A stretch of 64,000 nucleotides of DNA from Bacteroidota bacterium (lineage in GTDB: Bacteria; Bacteroidota; Bacteroidia; Bacteroidales; GCA-2711565), in assembly GCA_018816945.1 (NCBI GenBank), contig JAHIVC010000007.1, positions 1 to 64,000 of the forward strand. The letters are read 5' to 3'. Below, piece after piece: positions 47,597-61,729 of the stretch (its first letter is position 1; each line of letters opens with the position of its first letter). Under the pieces are notes generated by a model that was given only the letters and a program-made list of their open reading frames with translations, ran no database searches and was not told the DNA's origin. Both the position numbers and the translations under genes were made by a program.

Positions 47597-48088
47597 TTAT
47601 TTACCACAAATTTTAAGATCAGCAGTCTCATCAATCAATGAATGAGGACTTAAAATAAAGGGCTTTAGATATTCAAAAGCCATCTCCATATTTTCAATTG
47701 CCTTAGAAGTTAAACCTTCCATAAATTCCCATTCATAACCTTTGATATGAATTAAATAGGTAGGAGGTGCTGATTTATAAATTTCCTTGCACAAGTCAAC
47801 AATATAGCCCGGTGAGGCAGCATGAGTAGTAAATGTAATTTTAGAGTTTTCGGTTACTTTTGAGATACAAAAATCATCCAGCTCCTCAACCGAAGCATCC
47901 ACAAAAATCACCAATTCTTTATCGGCAATGGCATGCGCATCTTCAATATTTAACTGATAGTTGCTGTCAAATTCAAGGCCCTCTATATTGTTTTCCTTAG
48001 CCCATTCTTCCATTCGTTCAACAAAAGCATTGCCTAATCCATCATCTTGTCGGCCAGGGTTGCCGTAACCGTATATTAAAATTTTCAT
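47597..48088 (-). CDS. hoxW: [NiFe]-hydrogenase maturation protease (HoxW/HybD family)
   Basis: 163 residues. Nickel-ligand motifs of the family are visible: GNPGRQDDGLG (acidic residue near 16), an Asp in IFVDAS near 65, and the His in THAASPG near 93. The enzyme reads nickel in the immature large subunit and clips its C-terminal peptide. Its target is presumably HoxH, encoded upstream on the same strand beyond a 321-base repeat-bearing gap; that gap suggests separate transcription or a repeat insertion. The name hoxW is by context. Confidence 0.85.
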   Translation of the reverse strand: MKILIYGYGNPGRQDDGLGNAFVERMEEWAKENNIEGLEFDSNYQLNIEDAHAIADKELVIFVDASVEELDDFCISKVTENSKITFTTHAASPGYIVDLCKEIYKSAPPTYLIHIKGYEWEFMEGLTSKAIENMEMAFEYLKPFILSPHSLIDETADLKICGK

Positions 48089-48409: not shown

Positions 48410-49861
48410 CTATGTCCTTTTTTTATCGATCAAATTGTTTTTCGAATCGTACAAATTGACCTCAAGTGGCATTTTACCAATGGCATGGGTCGCACAACTC
48501 AAACATGGATCATATGCCCTGATTGCAACTTCGCAAGCGTTCATCATCGGCTCGGTAATTTCCTTCTGACCGGTCATCTGAGCTACAGCTACTTTGAGAA
48601 CTGCTTCGTTCATAGGTTTATTGTTATGTGTTGTTGAAACAATAAGGTTTGCCATTTCAATCTGATCGTTATCATTAATCCGGTAATGATGGAATAAAGT
48701 TCCACGAGGAGCTTCGATCAAACCAACACCTTCTTTTTGTTTGGTACCTTTTGTTACCAAATCACCTTTTAATAAATCCGGATCGTTCAACAGATCTTTC
48801 ATCATTTCGGCAGCGTGAAGTAATTCAATTAATCGTGCCCAATGCATGTGCATCGACATATTATTGGTTTTACCGCTGGTGTAGGCCCTGAATATTTCGA
48901 ATTCTTTTTGAGCCAATGGAGTTGGAATAAAATCACAGGTATTTAAACGAGCTAAAGGCCCTACTCTGTACCAACCATCTTCTTTACCTAATTCAAGCAG
49001 ATAAGGGAACTTCATATAGCTCCAACTCTTCACTTCTTCGCCAATGTATTTCAGGTAATCCTGATAATCTACATCATGAAGGATTTTTTTACCGTTAGCA
49101 TCCACTGCTCTCAGCACTCCATGATAAAGATCTAAGGCACCATCTTTACGAACCAAGCTTAAATGGCTTGATGGGAAAGCTGCGAAAGTATCAATTAAAC
49201 CTGCATTTGCTTTATGATAACCCTTGAAAAGATCGAGTGCTGCAATTGACCACTCAATCATTTTTTCAATATTCAACGGATCTGCACCTTTAAGGAACTC
49301 ATCTCTTTCGGCAATAGTCAAATGTTTGTTTATACCACCTGGGATTGCACCTGTTCCGTGAATTTTCTTACCGGCTGTAGCCCGGATAACTTCTTGTCCG
49401 AATTTACGCATCATTACTCCTTGAACGGCTAGTTCAGGGAATTTCATGGCTACGCCTATAACATTTCTGATTGCCGGATCAGCATCGATTCCGAACAACA
49501 AATCAGGAGATACAAGATGAAAGAAATGCAATGCATGTGATTGGAAAGTTTGTCCGTAGTGCATTAATCTTCTCATTTTTTCTCCTGTTGGAGTTAATCC
49601 ATCACCGGTTCCTGCACCAACGATTACGTCGAGTGCTTTGGCTGCTGCCAGATGGTGACTGACAGGGCAAATACCGCAAAGGCGTTGCACCAATACCGGG
49701 GCCTCCCAGTAAGGACGACCCTGAACAAAACGCTCAAAGCCCCTGAATTCAACAATATGTAAACGACTCTGGGTCACATTACCGTTATCATCCAGATGAA
49801 TGGTAACTTTACCATGTCCTTCTACTCTGGTTACGGGTTCTATAGTGATTTTTTTTGTCAT
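48410..49861 (-). CDS. hoxH: [NiFe] hydrogenase large subunit HoxH
   Basis: 483 residues. The L1 motif is RLCGICPVSHH (C62, C65) and the L2 motif DPCLSCATH (C453, C456, H459); together these supply the four cysteines that hold the Ni-Fe(CN)2CO centre. A 24-residue extension (460-483) follows H459 and is removed by the maturation protease. The L1/L2 forms and the partner subunits fit group 3d bidirectional hydrogenases. It oxidises or forms H2 in the cytoplasm. It is the last gene of the hox operon, 12 bases after hoxY. Confidence 0.96.
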   Translation of the reverse strand: MTKKITIEPVTRVEGHGKVTIHLDDNGNVTQSRLHIVEFRGFERFVQGRPYWEAPVLVQRLCGICPVSHHLAAAKALDVIVGAGTGDGLTPTGEKMRRLMHYGQTFQSHALHFFHLVSPDLLFGIDADPAIRNVIGVAMKFPELAVQGVMMRKFGQEVIRATAGKKIHGTGAIPGGINKHLTIAERDEFLKGADPLNIEKMIEWSIAALDLFKGYHKANAGLIDTFAAFPSSHLSLVRKDGALDLYHGVLRAVDANGKKILHDVDYQDYLKYIGEEVKSWSYMKFPYLLELGKEDGWYRVGPLARLNTCDFIPTPLAQKEFEIFRAYTSGKTNNMSMHMHWARLIELLHAAEMMKDLLNDPDLLKGDLVTKGTKQKEGVGLIEAPRGTLFHHYRINDNDQIEMANLIVSTTHNNKPMNEAVLKVAVAQMTGQKEITEPMMNACEVAIRAYDPCLSCATHAIGKMPLEVNLYDSKNNLIDKKRT

Positions 49862-49873
49862 GATTTCCTGCTT

Positions 49874-50422
49874 TTAATCAAATTTAACAACTTCGTAAGG
49901 TAAATTCAGTTCGCCACCCGTAACAAGGGCAACCAGTGCTTCCCAAATCAGATCGGCACGCGGGGGGCAACCGGGTAAATGATAATCGATTTTTACGATT
50001 TCGTGGCAAGGATATACCCTATCCAAAATCATAGGTAATTCATCATCATTTGGAAGAATACGGGTCGTATTATTTCCAACTGTTGGTCCGTTCAGATATG
50101 CTTCTTCGAGGCATTCCTGAACAGGGATACCATTACGTAATGCCGGTAATCCGCCCATGATGGCACATTCGCCAACTGATACTAAAATTTTACAATTTTT
50201 TCTGAATTCTTTAAGTACGTGAACGTTTTCACTATTACAGCATCCACCCTCAATCAATCCAATATCACATTGCTTAGTAAACGTTTTTATATCATCGATT
50301 GGTGATTTATTAAATTCAACCAAATCAATGAGTTGAAGAATTCTTTCATCAATGTCAAGAAGTGACATGTGGCAGCCGAAGCAGCCTGCTAATGATGTTG
50401 TTGCAACTATTGGTTTACTCAT
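49874..50422 (-). CDS. hoxY: [NiFe] hydrogenase small subunit HoxY
   Basis: 182 residues, the short form without medial and distal cluster domains. Cysteines for the single proximal [4Fe-4S] cluster lie in LAGCFGCHM (C14, C17), VGECAIMGG (near 95) and LPGCPPRAD (near 150). It passes electrons between HoxH and the diaphorase subunits. No Tat signal is present, so the enzyme is cytoplasmic. It follows hoxU by 27 bases. Confidence 0.95.
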   Translation of the reverse strand: MSKPIVATTSLAGCFGCHMSLLDIDERILQLIDLVEFNKSPIDDIKTFTKQCDIGLIEGGCCNSENVHVLKEFRKNCKILVSVGECAIMGGLPALRNGIPVQECLEEAYLNGPTVGNNTTRILPNDDELPMILDRVYPCHEIVKIDYHLPGCPPRADLIWEALVALVTGGELNLPYEVVKFD

Positions 50423-50449: not shown

Positions 50450-51151
50450 CTAAATTACACTGGTAATATCGCTACCGATCGCTTGTTTATCATATTTACG
50501 TGTGCCAATTGGTTCGTTAAAGCCTTTTTCTTTTTTGATTAAAGCCCCAACCGGACAAATGTTCATGATTTCCTGAGCCATATCATCGGTAATATCAGCG
50601 GCACATTCTTTATCAATGCAAATTTGTAATTTATGACCTCTTGACTTGAAAGCAAATAAACTTCTGCCTTTTTCATCTTTAAATGATCTGATACATCGTT
50701 TACATAAAATACAACGGTTACGGTCGATTAAGATTTTTGAATTTTCAGCATCAACCTGCTTTTGTGGAAACTGATATGGGAATCGGGGAACCATCATTTG
50801 ATATTTATAAGCCAAAGCCTGAAGTTCGCAATTTCCACTCTTTTCACAAGATGGACAGAAATGGTTGCCTTCAACAAATAATGCTTCAATAATTGCTAAT
50901 CTTAAGTCACGCAATTCAGGGGTGTCATTTTCAACTGCCATCCCTGCTGCTACAGGAGTAGTACATGCGGTCATTGTTCGGCCTGCAATTTTAACATTAC
51001 ATACCCTACAAGATCCTGCTTCTTTAATTCCTTTCACATGGCATAAAAATGGAATATAAACTCCATTATCGCGAGATGCATCTAAAACATTTTGTCCCTG
51101 TTCTGCAAAACACTCTTTACCATCGATGGTGAATTTTATTTTTTCGCTCAT
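50450..51151 (-). CDS. hoxU: Diaphorase subunit HoxU
   Basis: 233 residues, equal to the N-terminal part of complex I NuoG. A plant-type [2Fe-2S] domain has FLCHVKGIKEAGSCRVC and TACTTP ligands; a His-Cys3 [4Fe-4S] site is GNHFCPSCEKSGNC; a further ferredoxin-like site is NRCILCKRCIR with a second cysteine set toward ICPVGAL. It wires HoxEF to HoxY. Spacing of 42 bases to hoxEF and 27 to hoxY shows one operon. Confidence 0.94.
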   Translation of the reverse strand: MSEKIKFTIDGKECFAEQGQNVLDASRDNGVYIPFLCHVKGIKEAGSCRVCNVKIAGRTMTACTTPVAAGMAVENDTPELRDLRLAIIEALFVEGNHFCPSCEKSGNCELQALAYKYQMMVPRFPYQFPQKQVDAENSKILIDRNRCILCKRCIRSFKDEKGRSLFAFKSRGHKLQICIDKECAADITDDMAQEIMNICPVGALIKKEKGFNEPIGTRKYDKQAIGSDITSVI

Positions 51152-51193: not shown

Positions 51194-52987
51194 TTAAAGA
51201 TTTGGAACCCTGTCAACATATGCACAAGAAGCAGCTACTGCTTTTTCCATATCAAAGCCTAATTCGTATTTGGTGTCTTCCTGAAGAAGTTCTAAATATT
51301 TCTCACGGAAATTTTCAATTGTACTCAGGATTGGTTGGGCGGCTGTTTGGCCTAAACCACAACGGTTTGCAATCTTCATTTTATTTCCCCAATCAACCAA
51401 ATTGTCCAGATCGGACTTTACACCTTTGCCGTCAATAATTTTTCTCAATGTATTTCTCATTAAAACTGTAAAAGCTCTGCAAGGAACACATGAACCGCAT
51501 GATTCATCGATGAAGAAATCGGTAAAATTTAAAACAACATCTTTAAGTAAGTTGCGGTCTTTACCGATAATCATGATGGATCCACCTGTTGGGATATCTT
51601 CAAAAGAAATGGTCCGTTTGAAATCTTTAGGTCCGATACAAACGCCCGATGGTCCACCAATTTGAACTGCCTGAACATTTTCGGTACCTGCCATCTCCAA
51701 TAAATCTCTTACCCGCAATCCCCATTCAATGGCATAAACACCCGGGAATTCACAATCGCCGGATACGCTTAATAATTTTGTTCCGTTACTTTCACGTGAA
51801 CCCATGGTAGTAAACCACTCAGCACCATGATTAATAATTTTAACGACCGTACAAAGGGTTTCAACATTATTGATTACGGTTGGTTTATCAAGATAACCTT
51901 TTTGTACAGGGAATGGCGGACGATTTCGAGGTTCACCTCTTTTACCTTCTGCTGATTCGATCAATGCTGATTCTTCACCGCAAACATAGGCACCTGCACC
52001 AAATTGAATACGAATATCAAAATCAAAACCTTCTTTTCCGGCAATATTTTTGCCAAGTTGATTTGCATCACGCATTTCCTGAAGTGCATTTTCAAGATAT
52101 GCATTCAAGTATTTATACTCTGCCCTCAGGTACAAAATGCCTTCTTTTGCATCAATGGCATAAGCAGCAATTGTCATTCCTTCGAACAATAGTTTAGGAA
52201 CCTCCGTCAGGATAACTCTTTCTTTAAAAGTTCCGGGTTCGCCTTCATCTGCATTACATAAAATGTATCGTGGGCCGGGTGTTTTTGTACAGAAATCCCA
52301 TTTTAAACCTGTTGGGAAACCAGCTCCTCCTCTACCTCTCAAATGAGATTTTTTTATTTCCTCAATAACCTCTTTTGGGGTCATTTTTATTATTTTTTTT
52401 ACTGATGATCCATCATCGTAAGGTGCAAAAATAACCGGGCCTGATTTACGGATATTATTAAATACCATCGAATTAATAAGTGCCGAACCGTTTTGACCCT
52501 CACCTTTAAGCCTAATCATGTCCTTTGCAGCTACTCCTTTTTTCATCTTTTGAACTATCTCTTTTACCATGAGCGGAGTCAGATTGGTAAAAATGACGTC
52601 ATTGATAATGGCAGCAGGTTCCTGGTCACTCATACCGATACATGCTGTATTATGAAGTCCGATCATTCCATCAGAAGTAACGCTTCCAAATTTGCATCCG
52701 GCTTCTTCTTCAAATGCCTTTGCAACTTCAGCACGTCCTTTCATATTAGCAACCACACTGTTATTCAAATAAACAGCATACTTACCGACCGGTTTCTGTG
52801 AAAGAAAATGATAAAAGCTTAATGTTTGAACAACATCAACCTTTGATAGGACGGTTTCCTCTGCCACAACCTCAACAGCTTCTTCAGGTATAAAACCATA
52901 TTGGCTTTGAATATCAATCAGAATATCCATCAGCCTGGCTTTATCATTATTGTATTTTGCAATAATGTTTTTTACAGTAGTTCTCAT
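51194..52987 (-). CDS. hoxF: Fused NuoE/NuoF-like diaphorase HoxEF, NADH site subunit
   Basis: 597 residues. Residues about 1-150 are NuoE-like but have lost three of four [2Fe-2S] ligands: the expected cysteines are N75, A80, C116 and S120. Residues about 170-560 are NuoF-like: NAD-binding GRGGAGFPTGLKW, FMN-binding NADEGEPGTFKER and GAYVCGEESAL, and the [4Fe-4S] ligands ESCGSCVPCR plus NRCGLGQT. It exchanges electrons with NAD(H). It is first in the hox operon, behind a TAAATTTG promoter box and a Rex-type operator. Confidence 0.94.
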   Translation of the reverse strand: MRTTVKNIIAKYNNDKARLMDILIDIQSQYGFIPEEAVEVVAEETVLSKVDVVQTLSFYHFLSQKPVGKYAVYLNNSVVANMKGRAEVAKAFEEEAGCKFGSVTSDGMIGLHNTACIGMSDQEPAAIINDVIFTNLTPLMVKEIVQKMKKGVAAKDMIRLKGEGQNGSALINSMVFNNIRKSGPVIFAPYDDGSSVKKIIKMTPKEVIEEIKKSHLRGRGGAGFPTGLKWDFCTKTPGPRYILCNADEGEPGTFKERVILTEVPKLLFEGMTIAAYAIDAKEGILYLRAEYKYLNAYLENALQEMRDANQLGKNIAGKEGFDFDIRIQFGAGAYVCGEESALIESAEGKRGEPRNRPPFPVQKGYLDKPTVINNVETLCTVVKIINHGAEWFTTMGSRESNGTKLLSVSGDCEFPGVYAIEWGLRVRDLLEMAGTENVQAVQIGGPSGVCIGPKDFKRTISFEDIPTGGSIMIIGKDRNLLKDVVLNFTDFFIDESCGSCVPCRAFTVLMRNTLRKIIDGKGVKSDLDNLVDWGNKMKIANRCGLGQTAAQPILSTIENFREKYLELLQEDTKYELGFDMEKAVAASCAYVDRVPNL

Positions 52988-53033: not shown

Positions 53034-53051
53034 CTGTTAATCTTTTAACAA
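53034..53051. promoter_or_regulatory. Rex operator on the hydrogenase operon promoter
   Basis: CTGTTAA-TCTT-TTAACAA is an 18-bp palindrome with one mismatch, matching the Rex consensus TTGTKAA-N4-TTMACAA. It lies 46 bases upstream of the hoxEF ATG, between that ATG and the TAAATTTG -7 box, over the expected transcription start. Two Rex genes are encoded nearby. Confidence 0.85.
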
Positions 53052-53054
53052 ATG

Positions 53055-53073
53055 CAAATTTAGCGCAAATTTA
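53055..53073 (-). promoter_or_regulatory. hoxEF promoter -7 boxes (TAAATTTG, two copies)
   Basis: On the minus strand TAAATTTG occurs at 53062-53055 and again at 53073-53066. Both fit the Bacteroidota -7 consensus TAnnTTTG. A good -33 TTTG was not found at the usual distance, so the promoter may be weak or activated. The Rex site starts 3 bases downstream of the proximal box. Confidence 0.6.
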
Positions 53074-53406
53074 AATACCAAAAAACCAATTGAGGAATTT
53101 AGAAGAAGTTTAAATAATATATACTCACATTCAACCATTTAGATGCACACACCTACTTCTTTACAAATGAAAAGATTAAGTTAAAAACAGAATGCATTTT
53201 AACCCCCTATCTATGTTCGTTGATAACATATATTATTCTCTGACTTTCTGTTATTTACATTGTGAACAAATTATCATATAGCGAAAATACAATACGAATG
53301 CTTCAAAGATAAAGCTCGGGTCACGATCAAAAAAAGTCGTGTTGATTATTAACAAAAGTATTGAGACAACAAATTATGATTGTTCCAAGGGTTTCCGTAT
53401 AACTTT
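53074..53406. other. Noncoding gap between hoxEF promoter and rex
   Basis: About 330 bases with no convincing reading frame. A weaker half-match to a Rex site (TTGTGAA followed by CAAA-TTATCAT) is at 53260-53277. A short inverted pair CACGA/TCGTG is near 53322-53341. No terminator for the upstream minus-strand rex gene was recognised. Confidence 0.4.
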
Positions 53407-54024
53407 TTAATTACACTTTACAAAGTAGGCCATTTCCTCCAGGGTAGTAACTATATCAAATTCTTTGAGGTACACTGACTTTGGCAAATCAAGATGAACA
53501 GAAGTGAAATTCAGAATACTTTTAATTCCTGAATCCAATAATATCGAAGCTATAGAAGTAGCAAATTCCGATGGTATCGCAATAACTCCGACGGTTATGT
53601 TCTTTTCAAGGATGATTTTATTTAATTTACCAATGTCATAACATGGCACTTTATTAAACGATTTATCTATTAGTTGAGGGTCAATGTCAAAAATTGCTTT
53701 TACCTTCAAATTAATATCTTCTCCGGTAACATAATCCAAGATAGCCCTGCCCAACCGTCCGGCACCTATGATACAAATGTTTTGATACTCATTACTATCT
53801 ATTGTGACCCCAATTAAGGCATTTAATTCGTTTACATTATAACCTTTGCGATGATTACCGGATGATCCGATTAACATTAAATCTCTTCGAACCTGAACGG
53901 GATTTAGATTTAATAATCTCGCCAAATCATGTGAGTAAATAAAAGAGTCTTTCACGTATTTATATTTCACCAGTAATCTTCTGTAACGACTTAAACGCTG
54001 GACCGTTTTCTTTGGTAACTTCAT
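53407..54024 (-). CDS. rex: Redox-sensing repressor Rex (copy 1, beside hox operon)
   Basis: 205 residues from the ATG at 54024; a TTG at 54036 would add four residues. The N-terminal winged helix (KTVQRLSRYRRLL to VQVRRDLMLIG) is followed by a Rossmann domain with GAGRLGRAI (near residue 90) for NAD(H), and the C-terminal swapped helix (TTLEEMAYFVK). Rex releases DNA when NADH rises. It is transcribed toward the hox operon, 419 bases ahead of hoxEF, and Rex-type operators occur on the hoxEF and second rex promoters. Confidence 0.93.
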   Translation of the reverse strand: MKLPKKTVQRLSRYRRLLVKYKYVKDSFIYSHDLARLLNLNPVQVRRDLMLIGSSGNHRKGYNVNELNALIGVTIDSNEYQNICIIGAGRLGRAILDYVTGEDINLKVKAIFDIDPQLIDKSFNKVPCYDIGKLNKIILEKNITVGVIAIPSEFATSIASILLDSGIKSILNFTSVHLDLPKSVYLKEFDIVTTLEEMAYFVKCN

Positions 54025-54080
54025 AATTAGGATCAATTTATGGCAACTTTCAAACCAATATCAGCAAAGAAAGTGTAATG

Positions 54081-59490: not shown

Positions 59491-59892
59491 TTAGTCGCCG
59501 TAGGTTGCATGAAATTTACGCAAAGTATCTTCCAGATTCTCGATCATTACATAATGACTTTCGCAACCAACCCTTGAACAAATACTTACAACGCCGCCGA
59601 TCTCAATATTAAACTTTATTACTTTCCCATTGCATTCTTTGCAATCAACATTAGTATTCAATAATTCACGGCAGTGAGGACAATAAATTTCAGCATTACA
59701 ACCCTGAACCAATTGGATATCTGTCACTTTATCGTAGCATCCATAAGTAGAGCAAAGCCATAATTTGCCTGTTTTTTCACCACATTTAACATTTACATAA
59801 ATACTTGGTTTACCATTTAATTCTTTGTTGTAATCCATTAAAGAATGGTTACACTTGGTGCATTTTACATTTAAAGATACATTTTTAGGCAT
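59491..59892 (-). CDS. Cysteine-rich zinc-ribbon-like protein between hyp genes
   Basis: 133 residues with about 15 cysteines, many in paired or spaced sets: CTKC (11-14), KCGEKT, LCSTYGC, GCNAEIYCPHC, VDCKEC and ICSRVGC. The first and second halves look like repeated ribbon modules (NVKCGEKTGKLWLCSTYGC vs EIGGVVSICSRVGC). No named family was recognised. It is divergent from hypB, 216 bases away. HypA, the usual zinc-containing nickel chaperone, is not in the window; a related job is conceivable but unsupported, because no N-terminal MHE motif is present. Confidence 0.7.
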   Translation of the reverse strand: MPKNVSLNVKCTKCNHSLMDYNKELNGKPSIYVNVKCGEKTGKLWLCSTYGCYDKVTDIQLVQGCNAEIYCPHCRELLNTNVDCKECNGKVIKFNIEIGGVVSICSRVGCESHYVMIENLEDTLRKFHATYGD

Positions 59893-60084: not shown

Positions 60085-60107
60085 TAATTTTGTGAAAACT
60101 TTAATAA
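60085..60107 (+). promoter_or_regulatory. hypB -7 box overlapping a weaker Rex-type site
   Basis: TAATTTTG at 60085-60092 is a -7 box. It overlaps TTGTGAA-AACT-TTAATAA (60090-60107), which differs from a perfect Rex palindrome mainly by T for C in the right half. The hypB ATG is at 60109, so the transcript leader would be very short or the box is not the promoter. Treat as a candidate. Confidence 0.4.
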
Positions 60108-61108: not shown

Positions 61109-61729
61109 ATGAAGCACTTACCACACAAGACTATAGAACGACTAAGCCAGTATCGCAGAGCATTACTTATATGTGCCGCTAAAGGAAAAACACACATTTT
61201 TTCGCACGAGATTGCAAAAATACAACACATTACCCCTGTCCAGGTTAGAAGGGACATCATGTTGATTGGATACACGGGCACATTGAGAAAAGGATACAAT
61301 ATTCAAGAGTTAATTGATTTAATTGGGGATATCATCGATACGAAAGAAGGATTGAATGTTGCAGTTGTTGGCATTGGAAATCTTGGAAGGGCCATGATCA
61401 ATTATTTCAATGGCAAGCGTACAAAATTATCTATTGTAGCAGGCTTTGACAGTAACCCAGATAAAATTGACCGGATTTATTCCGGTGTTAAAGGCTATCA
61501 CATCGATCGATTAGCTGAAATAATTAAGGAAGAAAATATATCTATCGCCATTATTACGGTTCCTGCCGGTGCTGCTCCCGAAATAGCCGATAAACTTGTA
61601 ACTGCAGGAATTCAAGGCATTTTAAACTACACTCCAAAACCTGTTCATGTTCCACAGCATATTTATCTTGAGGAATATGATATGATTACTTCTCTTGAAA
61701 AAGTTGCTTTCTTTGTGAAAACGCATTAA
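61109..61729 (+). CDS. rex: Redox-sensing repressor Rex (copy 2, downstream of hypB)
   Basis: 206 residues with the same layout as the copy at 53407-54024: winged helix (KTIERLSQYRRALL to VQVRRDIMLIG), Rossmann motif GIGNLGRAM, and the C-terminal swapped helix (SLEKVAFFVKTH). The two proteins are clear paralogues with scattered differences. A Rex-type site is 76 bases upstream. Two redox repressors around one hydrogenase region suggests split duties. The stop is 4 bases from the convergent carbamate kinase gene's stop. Confidence 0.93.
   Translation: MKHLPHKTIERLSQYRRALLICAAKGKTHIFSHEIAKIQHITPVQVRRDIMLIGYTGTLRKGYNIQELIDLIGDIIDTKEGLNVAVVGIGNLGRAMINYFNGKRTKLSIVAGFDSNPDKIDRIYSGVKGYHIDRLAEIIKEENISIAIITVPAGAAPEIADKLVTAGIQGILNYTPKPVHVPQHIYLEEYDMITSLEKVAFFVKTH

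Follow-up and report, generated by a model that had tools for sequence, protein, structure and literature searches.

Rex represses its targets when NADH/NAD+ is low, and NADH releases it (PMC5317091; PMC8389512). The closest described systems are the Rex regulons of Clostridia and Caldicellulosiruptor, which have the same operator as the locus studied here, the Rex box being TTGTTAANNNNTTAACAA in clostridia (PMC5367854). Their targets include hydrogenase operons and rex, among them the NiFe Ech operon of C. bescii, and gel shifts in C. bescii support Rex control of hydrogenases, a NiFe one among them, and of rex itself (PMC6391272). Our locus differs from these systems in phylum, in promoter type (TAnnTTTG) and in hydrogenase class (NAD-linked HoxEFUYH). 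In Caldithrix abyssi, rex likewise adjoins an NAD-linked hydrogenase and a candidate Rex site has been described, but the enzyme is a bifurcating [FeFe] hydrogenase, the site lies upstream of rex, and the prediction comes from a single genome (PMC5317091). Our literature searches for Rex with Bacteroidota or with NAD-reducing hydrogenase found nothing relevant. Bacteroidota are reportedly absent from the main Rex survey, that of Ravcheev in 2012. Hydrogenases under Rex control have been described elsewhere; the host group is new here.

We analysed a stretch of 64,000 nucleotides (the window) from a Bacteroidota genome whose nearest named relative is a Bacteroidetes MAG (95% in HoxEF); the features discussed are collected in Table 1. 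On the minus strand, hoxEF (start 52987) is followed by hoxU, hoxY, hoxH and a maturation protease gene, and hypF, hypC, hypD, hypE and hypB, together with rex2, run opposite to the hox genes. The top solved-structure match for HoxH, HoxEF and HoxU was in each case 5xf9, the NAD-reducing HoxHYFU hydrogenase of Hydrogenophilus, an enzyme from another phylum that is uninformative on regulation. An electron-bifurcating enzyme of the HydABCSL type (7t2r) ranked second to 5xf9 for all three subunits and was rejected. Because all three best match 5xf9, the assignment to HoxEFUYH, a group 3d-type NAD-linked [NiFe] hydrogenase, is supported, and NAD(H)-coupled H2 activity is predicted; the preliminary description had called the enzyme NAD-linked, and the structure matches bear this out. 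Between hypE and hypB, a cysteine-rich 133-aa protein without a Pfam match is encoded on the opposite strand (59491-59892), and no hypA was noticed in the hyp cluster.

Table 1. Features of the hox and rex region, in coordinates of the window
Feature	Position	Strand	Basis or remark
Rex operator of hox promoter, CTGTTAATCTTTTAACAA (hox-sense TTGTTAAAAGATTAACAG)	53034..53051	-	Motif match and conservation
Proximal -7 box TAAATTTG, the conserved copy	53055..53062	-	Ends 3 nt before operator
Second TAAATTTG	53066..53073	-	Restricted to this genome and its nearest relative
Dyad ATTTAAACTTCTTCTAAAT, pattern ATTTAnA-N5-TCTAAAT	53097..53115	-	Centre near position -55 from the predicted start
Weak Rex-like site with two mismatches in the rex1-hoxEF gap	53260..53277	-	Conservation limited to G001 and G004; function uncertain
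rex1, hox-linked Rex paralogue	53407..54036	-	Same direction as hoxEF, upstream of it
Rex-like site at hypB start	60090..60107	+	Absent in G001
Rex operator upstream of rex2, TTGTGAAATTATTAACAA	61016..61033	+	Exact match, kept throughout the genus and in several families
rex2, probable main reader of the operator	61109..61729	+	8.06 kb from operator
hoxEF, NADH-binding diaphorase subunit with fused NuoE-like domain	51194..52987	-	Family models and structure match
hoxU	50450..51151	-	Family models and structure match
hoxY, small subunit	49874..50422	-	Operon position and small-subunit families only, no equivalog
hoxH, [NiFe] large subunit	48410..49861	-	Family models and structure match
Hydrogenase maturation protease	47597..48088	-	TIGR00072

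The palindrome of the hox promoter reads CTGTTAA TCTT TTAACAA and has one mismatch from TTGTTAANNNNTTAACAA, in agreement with the 18-bp near-perfect Rex palindrome first described there. It spans about 64 to 47 bp upstream of the hoxEF start codon, which lies 46 bp below it. Across relatives, the arms of TTGTKAA-N4-TTMACAA hold (with one mismatch in this genome) and the N4 spacer varies. In an alignment of 38 promoters, whose operators were chosen by threshold so that arm conservation is inflated but the -7 box and the spacer are not affected, 31 carried TAnnTTTG no more than 45 nt upstream of the operator, most commonly ending 2-3 nt before it. A TTG lay in the -33 region of 15 of 25 promoters. 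The -7 box of Bacteroidota promoters is found here at a fixed place. The preliminary description had named two such boxes; both copies of TAAATTTG are present, but conservation holds only for the operator-proximal one, and the second was set aside as probably not the promoter used. The end of the proximal box, 3 nt before the operator, puts the predicted transcription start at about 53050, at the operator edge. Since the operator abuts the -7 box, it would cover the probable start, and this layout fits repression by blocking of the polymerase.

We compared 62 hoxEF upstream regions from the order, taken from genomes found with HoxEF and HoxH queries. Rex2 served as the query for counting Rex genes, genomes with a Rex of the Rex1 or Rex2 type were taken as Rex-positive, and a site was scored at no more than one mismatch within 150 bp. 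The results showed that 33 of 41 Rex-positive genomes carried the site (shuffle expectation 0.12) and eight had none at this threshold, compared with 1 of 21 others (Fisher p = 6e-9), namely 17 genomes in which no Rex was found and four with only divergent or partial Rex. Collapsed to families, the comparison gave 15 of 20 versus 1 of 11 (p = 6e-4); this test is the weaker one, and shared ancestry accounts for part of the conservation. The sole site-bearing genome among the 21 (G253, 78% complete) had a perfect site and no Rex was found in it. False absences of Rex due to MAG incompleteness are likely, and they would weaken the association between site and Rex, not create it. These findings indicate that the site occurs together with Rex genes and is conserved far beyond chance across relatives.

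Two Rex genes near the operator had been proposed, and both rex1 and rex2 were recovered, with whole-length matches of their products to Rex families and solved Rex structures. The hox-linked Rex1 proteins formed a group apart from Rex2 (support 93/99) that also took in two long-branched rows. This separate grouping, and the position of rex1 immediately before hoxEF, both within the genus and in other families, would suit an operator that is real but read by a dedicated Rex1, with Rex2 serving only the rest of the regulon. We consider this unlikely: in most genomes with the operator rex2 is the only Rex gene, and in three genomes with a decayed rex1 (G004, G206 and G207) the hox operator persists, as does an intact rex2. 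The same decay makes Rex2 the likelier main reader of the hox operator. Judged from these gene distributions, Rex2 would suffice to explain the conservation of the site, and Rex1 may have a role where it is present. Of rex1, beside the intact operator (loci L018, L095 and L097), G004 retains the C-terminal 41 aa with a stop, G206 the C-terminal 110 aa and G207 only the two ends. G019 and G048 (L026, L030) have a divergent Rex gene immediately upstream of hoxEF, and the stretch between the two genes contains no operator of the hox type.

The conserved operator upstream of rex2 makes this gene a candidate for autoregulation. In several families (L140, L145, L149 and others), the rex2 promoter has two Rex operators about 55 bp apart, the second lying downstream; the window retains just the upstream one in intact form.

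The dyad geometry of Crp sites resembles TGTTA-N6-TAACA, and a Crp/Fnr-family protein instead of Rex might therefore read the palindrome. Crp/Fnr-like genes are indeed present in these genomes, and one, identified by reading its translation, lies directly upstream of hoxEF in G032; yet this very genome, which has no Rex, is without the site. As the site is found with Rex and is nearly missing without it, and the same motif stands at rex2, we regard a Crp/Fnr reader as very improbable.

Within the window alone, the motif is unremarkable, with 22 occurrences of up to three mismatches found and 15.5 expected. Genome-wide pattern searches gave six exact matches to TTGTKAANNNNTTMACAA versus none for the reversed pattern, and 27 one-mismatch matches versus 24, so that the latter were not enriched by count. 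The real sites were intergenic in 27 of 33 cases, including all six exact ones, whereas the reversed-control sites lay within ORFs in 15 of 15 examined. With target genes named by family models, the exact sites precede rex2 and the genes for a methylmalonyl-CoA mutase small subunit, an AOR-family protein, an acetate-CoA ligase (AcsA family, acetyl-CoA synthetase), an acetate-CoA ligase alpha subunit and an acyl-CoA dehydrogenase. Among the genes that follow one-mismatch sites are those for malate dehydrogenase, malic enzyme, phosphate acetyltransferase, phosphate butyryltransferase and glutamate dehydrogenase. The motif is found, then, at rex itself and at redox and fermentation genes. Site conservation was examined at hox, rex2, rex1 and hypB; the hypB site was absent even in G001, which is 95% identical in HoxEF, and was not counted as functional. 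The evidence from one genome on its own is thin, and the comparison across relatives settles the site. A chance palindrome in an AT-rich promoter, which would agree with the window count near expectation and the unenriched one-mismatch matches, is contradicted by the shuffle comparison and the conserved placement relative to the -7 box and can be set aside as negligible.

A second conserved element lies further upstream in the hox promoter. In 25 genomes from 13 families, the sequence TTCTAAAT, half of the dyad listed in Table 1, lies 41-43 bp upstream of the -7 box (mean of 0.07 and maximum of 1 in shuffles). In this genome, exact copies, at other spacings, are also found upstream of the AOR-family gene and of two 2-oxoacid:ferredoxin oxidoreductase-like genes, and the one of these two that was scanned contained Pfam POR. 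No regulator gene was found downstream of the dyad sites examined, and a literature search for the TTCTAAAT dyad gave no match. The dyad is a probable, undescribed activator site at the hox promoter. We tentatively propose a two-input switch, in which Rex would act over the start site and an undescribed activator at the promoter-phased dyad, its regulator also marking the two 2-oxoacid:ferredoxin oxidoreductases and the AOR-family gene; the case for this is somewhat short of even.

Taken as a whole, the best explanation, to which we assign a probability of about 0.9, is that the palindrome is a functional Rex operator. It rests on the observed site, its conservation, co-occurrence and placement, the autoregulatory site and the content of the regulon. 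A Rex operator over the hox transcription start, as originally suggested, is what the conserved arms with their variable N4, the -7 box placement, the shared distribution of site and Rex genes, and the recurrence of the motif at rex2 and fermentation genes all point to. Rex binding, repression, the response to NADH and the role of the activator are inferred, the NADH switch of hox by analogy with the Rex family. At low NADH/NAD+, a Rex dimer (mainly Rex2, perhaps Rex1 too) would occupy 53034-53051, immediately after the -7 box, so that RNA polymerase is blocked at the hox start. Accumulating NADH would release Rex and allow transcription of hoxEF-hoxU-hoxY-hoxH, and the hydrogenase could then dispose of NADH electrons as H2. 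Rex2 would also control its own gene and a fermentation regulon that includes methylmalonyl-CoA mutase, acetate and butyrate enzymes, malate dehydrogenase and glutamate dehydrogenase, and a second factor, bound to the dyad near -55, is a probable activator of the hox promoter.

These results provide a comparative-genomic Rex regulon for uncultured Bacteroidota. They single out one promoter, a second conserved element in it and two candidate regulators, and they suggest that an NAD-linked [NiFe] hydrogenase is tied to the NADH/NAD+ ratio. Hydrogen metabolism in this bacterium is probably switched by the NADH level of the cell.
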